From: Sphingobacteriaceae bacterium
GTDB lineage: Bacteria; Bacteroidota; Bacteroidia; Sphingobacteriales; Sphingobacteriaceae
Direction of reading: 5' to 3'
DNA: 34,922 nt
Assembly (NCBI GenBank): GCA_019752795.1
Contig: JAIELS010000109.1
Span: 1-34,922 of the forward strand
The notes beneath the pieces are model-generated. The model was not told where the DNA came from. It saw only the letters and a list, made by a program, of their open reading frames with translations, and searched no databases. A program made the translations under genes and the position numbers. Positions 25,036-32,497 of the stretch are shown one piece after another; position 1 is the first letter of the stretch; every line of letters begins with the position of its first letter.

Positions 25036-25120
25036 CGTCATTTCGAAGAAGGTACGACTGAGAAATCTGTAAGCAGAGAAGTATAGGATAGAGATTTCTC
25101 GCATGCGTTCCAAAGGACGG
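25036..25120 (+). repeat. REP-like inverted element (CGTCATTTCGA...GAGAAATCT...AGATTTCTC)
   Basis: Perfect 9-bp GAGAAATCT/AGATTTCTC arms (25060-25068/25092-25100); second half-copy at 32441-32482. Confidence 0.65.
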
Positions 25121-25303
25121 TTGAAAGACCAACAAAAAGATTACAGCAAACAGCAGGACTGCAGATCCTAATAATTACTGACATTCATTTTCAAAACACC
25201 TAATCCTTTAAAATTTCTGCCTTTCTGCCAACGTGTCAGCCATTATTAAGCTTAATCGTTACATTTTAACAGTCTTTTAAGTGTTATTTCTGCCAAAACT
25301 CAA

Positions 25304-25319
25304 TTGGCACATTGCTTGT
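25304..25319 (+). promoter_or_regulatory. Sigma54-like -24/-12 promoter upstream of dnaK
   Basis: TTGGCAC-N5-TTGT vs consensus TGGCAC-N5-TTGC; 47 nt before the ATG. Confidence 0.5.
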
Positions 25320-25366
25320 TAATGAGCTAGTATACATTAAAAATTTAAAAAGAAATACAAAATAAA

Positions 25367-27268
25367 ATGGGAAAAATAATTGGTATAGACTTAGGAACAA
25401 CAAACTCTTGCGTTTCTGTAATGGAAGGTAACGAACCTGTAGTTATAGCCAACAGTGAGGGTAAACGTACAACGCCATCTATTGTTGCTTTTGCAGAAAA
25501 CGGCGAGCGTAAAGTGGGTGAACCTGCTAAACGTCAGGCGATAACGAACCCTACAAAAACAATTTATTCTATTAAGCGCTTTATGGGTAACAGCTTTGCT
25601 GAGGTTGCCAAAGAAATTGGTAGAGTACCTTATAAAGTAGTTAAGGGAGATAACAATACGCCACGTGTAGAAATAGACGATCGTAAATATACTCCACAAG
25701 AAATTTCGGCTATCATTTTACAAAAAATGAAAAAAACGGCTGAAGATTTCTTAGGTCATGAAGTAACGGAAGCAGTTATTACTGTTCCTGCATACTTTAA
25801 CGATGCACAACGTCAAGCGACGAAAGAAGCTGGGGAGATTGCTGGTTTAACTGTAAAACGTATCATTAACGAACCAACTGCAGCAGCTTTAGCTTATGGT
25901 TTAGATAAAGCACACAAAGACATGAAAATTGTTGTTTTTGATTGTGGTGGTGGTACACATGATGTTTCGGTTTTAGAATTAGGTGATGGCGTTTTCGAAG
26001 TAAAATCTACTGATGGTGATACACACTTAGGTGGTGATGATTTTGACCACGTAATTATCGATTGGTTAGCTCAAGAATTCAAGACTGAAAATGGAATGGA
26101 TTTAGCTCAAGATCCAATGGCTTTACAACGTTTAAAAGAAGCCGCTGAAAAAGCTAAAATTGAGTTGTCTAGTACAACTTCTACAGAAATTAACTTGCCA
26201 TATATTACTGCTGATGCAAGCGGACCAAAACACTTAGTTAGAACTTTAAGCCGTGCTAAATTTGAGCAATTAGCTGGAGATTTAATTAAACGTACGATTG
26301 ACCCTTGTAAATCTGCTTTGAAAAATGCTGGTTTAAAAGTTGGTGATATCGACGAAATTATCTTAGTAGGTGGTTCAACTCGTATTCCTGCAATTCAGGA
26401 TGCTGTTAAAGCTTTCTTTGGTAAAGAACCAAGTAAAGGTGTAAACCCTGATGAGGTTGTTGCAATTGGTGCTGCTATTCAAGGTGGTGTTTTAACTGGT
26501 GAGGTTAAAGATGTATTGTTATTAGATGTTACTCCACTTTCTTTAGGTATTGAAACTATGGGTGGTGTAATGACGAAATTAATTGAAGCAAATACAACTA
26601 TCCCTTCTAAAAAAGCAGAAACTTTCTCTACAGCAGCTGATAATCAGCCTTCGGTAGAAATCCATATTTTACAAGGCGAGCGTCCTATGGCTGCTCAAAA
26701 CCGTACAATTGGTCGTTTCATTTTAGATGGAATTCCACCAGCGCCACGCGGTGTGCCACAAGTAGAAGTTGCTTTTGATATTGATGCAAACGGTATTTTA
26801 CACGTAAGCGCTAAAGATAAAGCTACTGGTAAAGAGCAAAAAATTCGTATTGAAGCTTCATCTGGTTTAACAGAAGAAGAAATTAAGAGAATGAAAGAAG
26901 AAGCGGAAGCTAATGCTGATTCTGATGCTAAACAAAAAGAAGAAGCAGATAAAATTAACGGTGCTGATGCTTTAATTTTCTCTACTGAGAAACAATTGAA
27001 AGAGTTTGGTGATAAATTATCTGATGATAAAAAAGCGCCAATAGAAGCTGGTTTAGAGAAATTAAAAGCAGCTCATTTGTCTCGTAACTTTGCAGATATT
27101 GATGCAGCTCAAGAAGAATTGCAAAATGCTTGGAACGTTGCTTCAGAAGAAATGTACAAAGCTGGTGAGCAAGCTCAAGGTGATGCTCCACAAGCAGATG
27201 CACAACAAGGTGGCGATACAGTTACTGATGTTGAATTTGAAGAAGTAAAAGACGAAGAGAAAAAGTAG
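25367..27268 (+). CDS. dnaK: Molecular chaperone DnaK (Hsp70)
   Basis: [51 protein letters not shown]. Confidence 0.99.
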
Positions 27269-32321: not shown

Positions 32322-32440
32322 TTTTGGATAGTTTATTTTGTAAAAGTAGGAATTTTTAACATTAAGAAGTGAAGGTGCTTAAAGCTGTGTTGCGCTTTTG
32401 ATTTCTGGATTTAAATTGTTGTAATGGTTTCTTAAAGCTC

Positions 32441-32482
32441 TATAGGAAAGATTTCTCGTCGCTGCCCTCTGTCGAAATGACG
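32441..32482 (-). repeat. Half-copy of the REP-like element found at 25036-25120
   Basis: TATAGGAAAGATTTCTCG...TCGAAATGACG; reverse complement CGTCATTTCGA...GAGAAATCT. Confidence 0.6.
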
Positions 32483-32497
32483 GTTTTTGTGAATAAA

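Follow-up and report, generated by a model that had tools for sequence, protein, structure and literature searches.

In Proteobacteria the genes dnaK, groESL, grpE, clpB, lon and hsp20 belong to the regulon of sigma-32 (RpoH), a factor that is not known from Bacteroidota. PspF, the sigma-54 activator of the phage-shock system, is a short enhancer-binding protein (EBP) without an N-terminal sensor domain; it serves a stress-type regulon and represses its own synthesis through an upstream operator. Bacteroidota are a dominant phylum of the gut and the environment, and on the control of their chaperones the open literature offers no settled answer.

In the part of their study that treats the enrichment of functional categories, Carrera-Reyna et al. 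(2025, PMC12316311) report that predicted sigma-54 promoters are enriched, at class level, at the COGs for GroEL, GroES, DnaK, DnaJ, GrpE and IbpA in Bacteroidota and Planctomycetota, and that protease COGs are likewise enriched in these two phyla; the same text credits Sabree et al. 2009 with earlier remarks about GrpE and GroES. That these chaperones are under sigma-54 control is thus a prediction already made (PMC12316311). Here we consider a single dnaK promoter, the site from which it may be activated, and the protein that is likely to act there.

Results

A -24/-12 element upstream of dnaK

The window, by which we mean the whole stretch of 34,922 nucleotides that was analysed, is contig C3 of a genome that is 83% complete and divided among 218 contigs. 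The genome is Pedobacter-like: its sole full-length DnaK match, encoded in the window, is 91-93% identical to Pedobacter DnaK. The features of interest, all on the plus strand, are these.

25226 to 25238, plus strand: enhancer-like dyad TGCCA-ACG-TGTCA, within CTGCCAACGTGTCAG, a putative UAS of the chaperone EBP
25291 to 25295, plus strand: TGCCA half-site, left arm of an inverted repeat, its centre 12 bp upstream of the -24 T
25304 to 25319, plus strand: predicted sigma-54 -24/-12 promoter TTGGCAC-N5-TTGT, on the basis of conservation in 76/80 dnaK upstreams
25331 to 25366, plus strand: predicted dnaK 5'UTR, from the -24/-12 spacing
25367 to 27268, plus strand: dnaK (Hsp70), 633 aa, ATG at 25367, PF00012 E 2e-262

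A preliminary description had read the element at 25304-25319 as a -24/-12 promoter with one mismatch and a 5'UTR of ~35 nt, and had seen neither a TAnnTTTG box nor a CIRCE element near dnaK. These points hold. The element reads TTGGCACATTGCTTGT and departs from TTGGCAC-N5-TTGC only at the -12 C, which is T; with its GG at -25/-24, the predicted dnaK start falls at ~25331 and the 5'UTR would measure 36 nt. TAnnTTTG is absent from 25150-25366, and the window has no CIRCE-like repeat upstream of dnaK. The perfect 6-bp inverted repeat that had been called operator-like, TGCCAA-aactcaa-TTGGCA (25291-25309, TGCCAAaactcaaTTGGCA), is present and overlaps the -24 box, but the right arm is that box, and the left arm belongs to a set of phased half-sites (below); as an independent operator it was rejected.

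Within the window the motif is at the level of chance: TGGCAYN5TTG occurs once against 0.62 expected, and the consensus with one mismatch once against 0.64. The evidence of the preliminary description was therefore insufficient by itself, and we rejected any judgement of the promoter from the window alone (about 0.6 matches expected). The dnaK motif rises above chance because it is conserved across dnaK upstreams.

A REP-like short repeat, TCATTTCGA...GAGAAATCT, is present in two copies, at 25038-25080 (plus strand) and near 32430-32485 (minus strand) of the window; one of these lies ~190 bp upstream of the dnaK dyad.

Conservation of the element across Bacteroidota

We compared 80 dnaK loci spanning Pedobacter to Bacteroidales. 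YGGCAY-N5-TTG occurs within 150 nt of the dnaK ATG at 76 of the 80 and on the opposite strand at none (0/80). Markov sequences gave an expectation of 0.2 dnaK-upstream matches, with a maximum of 3 in 300 simulations, and only 5 of 307 control ORF upstreams carry the pattern. Near variants precede dnaK at L027 (TGGTACAGTGCTTGC), L033 (TGGCAAGAAGGTTGA) and L034 (TGGTATAGTGATTGA); at L085 a copy of the element lies 163 nt upstream, beyond the 150-nt limit.

Across the dnaK sites the GG, CA and TTG of the element are conserved and the N5 spacing is fixed. The -12 base is A at a frequency of 0.49, T (as in the window) at 0.38, and the classical C at 0.13. Replacement of the C of TTGC by A or T in 87% of sites counts against a sigma-54 reading; judged from the aligned sites, it is a lineage-specific variation of Bacteroidota. 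Upstream of groES the element takes a variant form, TTGGCATA-N4-CTG and relatives of it, and the weaker -12 boxes found there also count against that reading.

RpoN was matched in 389 of the 393 Bacteroidota genomes sampled. The protein of the source genome (503 aa) contains the AID, core-binding and DNA-binding domains (PF00309, PF04963 and PF04552), all above cut-off, together with the ARRTVAKYRE box. HrcA was found in none of 22 Bacteroidia genomes, the source genome included, and in 10 of 14 from other classes of Bacteroidota, where several groES genes are preceded by CIRCE-like repeats; such a repeat (TTAGCACTC-N9-GAGTGCTAA) precedes 0 of the 80 dnaK genes.

A phased dyad upstream of the -24 box

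The enhancer-like element is the dyad at 25226-25238 and not the inverted repeat of the preliminary description, from which it sits 66 bp farther upstream. Its centre precedes the -24 T by 73 bp, and the window contains no other TGNCA-N3-TGNCA. The TGCCA at 25291-25295 falls on the nearest tooth (12-16 bp) of a comb of half-sites that emerges from comparison between species.

Upstream of the dnaK -24 box the dyad is found at 39 of 80 loci, against 0.25 expected and a maximum of 3 in 200 simulations. The spacing of 3 is uniquely favoured, every other half-site spacing from 0 to 24 occurring in 0 to 8 dnaK upstreams, and single TGNCA half-sites upstream of the 80 boxes number 251 against 55 expected. 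Roughly one dnaK upstream in two is without an exact dyad, which counts against a model in which an EBP acts through it.

Distances between dyad centre and -24 box cluster at ~19, 30, 41, 51, 61, 73, 83 and 93 bp. A period of 10.6 bp fits these distances best (R 0.86, 37 dyads), which places the dyads on the same side of the helix. When every combination of clade and distance was entered a single time (29 values), R was 0.84 and the Rayleigh p 1.5e-9 at 10.5 bp; randomly positioned dyads never exceeded R 0.65 in 1000 trials. Ten groES dyads, left out when the phase was defined, depart from the dnaK phase by at most 1.8 bp. We propose that TGNCA-N3-TGNCA, phased at both dnaK and groES, is the enhancer of an activator.

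A candidate activator linked to groESL

In Pedobacter relatives a gene for an EBP stands in the continuous order miaB - EBP - lptE - TPR-like gene - secG - groES - groEL; in the source genome the pieces of this cluster are split over two contigs, C126 and C176. The protein, of ~410 aa, has an AAA+ sigma-54 activation domain from residue 12 (PF00158, E 3e-68) and a C-terminal Fis-type HTH (HTH_8, residues 372-408). All orthologs aligned possess the G[AS]FTG[AS] loop, and among them the recognition helix ISERTLYRK is invariant. No receiver (REC) or other N-terminal domain was found in the EBP, which sets it apart from response regulators of the NtrC type. The source genome encodes four EBPs; in G115, G299 and G363 the ortholog beside lptE is the only one. 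The most likely activator at the dnaK dyad is this groESL-linked EBP of ~410 aa, which we infer to bind there.

The dyad also occurs at the operon of the EBP itself: in nine of nine Bacteroidia genomes (L206-L210, L212-L215) it starts 30-33 bp upstream of the TAnnTTTG box of miaB-EBP. A dyad so placed is expected to interfere with the housekeeping promoter, and autorepression of the operon is therefore probable.

The predicted sigma-54 regulon

A pattern scan of the source genome returned 35 matches, against 11 for the reversed pattern, most of them inside genes. Intergenic matches with a downstream gene precede dnaK, lon, clpB, thioredoxin, a small envelope protein, an OmpA/glycine-zipper-like protein and one short ORF. 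The total count of TGGCAYN5TTGW in three complete Pedobacter genomes showed no enrichment over the reversed control; its intergenic sites in these relatives precede dnaK, lon, clpB, hsp20 and trxA, as well as a glycine-zipper protein, an HlyD-like adaptor, porin-like proteins and singletons. Genes in all four genomes were named from their translated N-termini. A genome-wide YGGCAY scan of G115 gave 143 matches against 70 in the control, too many to be useful.

In Pedobacter, lon, clpB, hsp20 and the envelope genes have the -24/-12 promoter without a dyad, which makes a further sigma-54 activator likely; that one activator serves the entire regulon was rejected on the same ground. Loci with this arrangement include clpB at L236, L287, L306 and L314, lon at L101, L253, L303 and L345, and hsp20 at L227, L298 and L324.

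Reduced symbiont genomes and genomes without RpoN

Five symbiont genomes of reduced size were read over their whole length or almost all of it (for G755, 200,000 of 200,377 bp). RpoN and a single intact EBP adjoining groESL are present in G489 (629,662 bp, Blattabacterium-like), G479 (344,793 bp), G743 (309,299 bp) and G735 (263,431 bp). The whole of G489 contains two matches to the -24/-12 pattern, one in an apparent 16S rRNA and the other 44 nt upstream of dnaK. In G743 and G735 dnaK is the only adjacent gene downstream of an intergenic TTG-type match; in G479 such a match lies at lon, and dnaK has GGGCATGATGATTGA. Intergenic dyads in the symbionts occur only at grpE-like genes (G489, G743, G735), groES (G489, G479) and miaB-EBP (G489), the three grpE dyads being followed ~19-29 bp downstream by TGGCAA-N5-TTG-like boxes. 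Nearly every site in these four endosymbionts is, in short, at dnaK, groES, grpE, lon or the EBP operon.

The fifth genome, the Sulcia-like G755 (200,377 bp, 15% GC; L398-L405, L433-L434), keeps dnaK, groESL and lon; the 200,000 bp read contain no RpoN, EBP, dyad or usable element. This joint loss comes from one genome only, with a GC content of 15%, which counts against giving it much weight.

Retention of RpoN by Walczuchella, Uzinura and Blattabacterium has been called unusual and tentatively tied to nitrogen (PMC3971599). That nearly all recognisable symbiont sites lie at chaperone or protease genes suggests why flavobacterial insect symbionts keep RpoN, and offers an explanation besides the nitrogen link.

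Outside the symbionts, in G213, G249, G296 and G367 (L138, L136, L142, L131), dnaK apparently stands behind an hsp20-like gene and is without a sigma-54 element; three of these four genomes gave no RpoN match and the fourth a weak one. G316 (L220, L149), which belongs to another Bacteroidota class and is 98% complete, has an EBP ortholog adjoining lptE and a TTGGTACGAGTTTTGC box at groES. It gave no RpoN match despite its EBP, by assembly gap or real loss, which counts against the sigma-54/EBP reading. The genomes without an RpoN match (G316, G367, G249 and G296, three of them with dnaK behind an hsp20-like gene) were considered as clean negatives and set aside as weak, being of other classes and in some cases incomplete; G316 in addition still has its EBP, and the Sulcia-like genome serves better.

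The proposal that Hsp70 is under sigma-54 control, unlike in the HrcA/CIRCE paradigm, draws on phylum-wide conservation of the element, an intact RpoN, and the absence of HrcA and CIRCE; to these are added a proteostasis regulon that emerged from a scan not targeted at stress genes, and the co-loss with RpoN in a reduced symbiont. Genome comparison thus strongly supports the sigma-54 reading of the dnaK promoter and its contrast with HrcA/CIRCE. The -24/-12 arrangement with its putative distant activator site is kept across Bacteroidota, tiny-genome insect symbionts included.

Discussion

Our preferred reading, to which we give a probability of roughly 0.85, is that dnaK has an RpoN promoter activated by the groESL-linked EBP through the phased dyad. 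At the level of sequence, the comparisons show conservation of the promoter, the dyad, its phasing, gene linkage, an autoregulatory layout and co-loss. On this reading RNA polymerase with RpoN would wait as a closed complex at 25304-25319. The EBP would bind TGNCA-N3-TGNCA at 25226-25238, ~100 bp upstream of the dnaK start, and from a fixed helical face, as in other Bacteroidota, open the promoter by ATP hydrolysis. The same unit of EBP, dyad and sigma-54 would serve dnaK, groESL and trxA in Pedobacter and, in symbionts, grpE, with the EBP probably repressing its own operon through the dyad just upstream of the housekeeping TAnnTTTG box. For lon, clpB, hsp20 and certain envelope proteins, which share the promoter and lack the dyad, another activator is probably at work. 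As to what might control a sensorless EBP, our guesses are chaperone feedback or a PspA-like partner.

It is quite possible, if short of probable, that the sigma-54 promoter provides a strong constitutive or growth-linked supply of chaperones and is no heat-shock switch. The EBP has no sensor domain; its operon looks autorepressed, as for a factor held at a constant level; and retention in endosymbionts that live under stable conditions suggests a steady, high supply. Against this, the promoter class in Pedobacter extends to clpB, lon and hsp20, which are typical stress-induced genes. A bolder extension of the preferred reading is speculative and, to our minds, somewhat doubtful: that Bacteroidia exchanged HrcA/CIRCE for a sigma-54 switch whose sensorless EBP is controlled by binding to DnaK or GroEL, and that this is why RpoN survives in insect symbionts of 260-630 kb. 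If true, Bacteroidia would possess an ATP-driven, enhancer-dependent heat-shock response under the direct control of chaperone availability.

We think it unlikely that the promoter is real and the dyad is bound by some other factor, such as an independent activator or repressor acting on chaperone genes. Binding of the EBP to the dyad is deduced from sequence, and both the four EBPs of the source genome and the sharing of the promoter without a dyad by lon, clpB and hsp20 indicate more than one activator. Where a genome has one EBP, as in G489, G479, G743 and G115, any sigma-54 promoter must, however, depend on that EBP; the dyads of the symbionts lie at groES, at grpE or at the operon of the EBP, the aligned orthologs all have the same ISERTLYRK helix, and the phasing with respect to the -24 box is consistent with an EBP.

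Less probable still is transcription of dnaK by a sigma-70-class factor (sigma-ABfr or ECF), with TGGCAY-N5-TTG playing some other role, for instance within the binding site of a repressor. The phylum does possess a housekeeping promoter of its own kind (TTTG / TAnnTTTG), which stands out plainly at the miaB-EBP operon, but TAnnTTTG occurs upstream of dnaK at 3 of 80 loci against 7.3 expected, that is, below expectation. The fixed N5 and near-invariant GG and TG match the bipartite sigma-54 promoter, and the element is missing from the RpoN-less Sulcia-like genome. A functionless TTGGCA-like string, for which the 0.6 matches expected in the window left room, is refuted by 76 of 80 observed against 0.2 expected and need hardly be entertained.

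Comparison with known systems

The study of Carrera-Reyna et al. concerns enrichment across COGs, whereas the present analysis concerns single promoters; the activator, enhancer sequence, helical phasing, autoregulation, HrcA absence and symbiont co-loss described here are not named in the part of PMC12316311 that we draw on. Our search of the open-access literature turned up no account of the activator or of its site. What appears to be new is the activator, the phased enhancer, the autoregulation and the co-loss.

The targets of sigma-32 overlap those of sigma-54 in Bacteroidota, but the promoter there is of the sigma-70 family, and here it is of the -24/-12 type, which requires an ATP-dependent activator. 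HrcA/CIRCE offers the likeness of dedicated control over groESL and dnaK and differs in its components, with HrcA in 0 of 22 Bacteroidia and a CIRCE-like repeat at 0 of 80 dnaK genes. These genomes lack the HrcA/CIRCE signature, yet almost all of them have RpoN; with promoter, enhancer and likely activator now named, the matter is testable. PspF is similar in design, the chaperone EBP being also short and sensorless, with a stress-type regulon and predicted self-repression through an upstream dyad; it differs in its targets (here the cytosolic chaperones of dnaK, groESL and grpE), in its linkage to miaB, lptE, secG and groESL and not to psp, and in its dyad. Bacteroidota appear to run their protein-folding machinery with a switch unlike the textbook ones.
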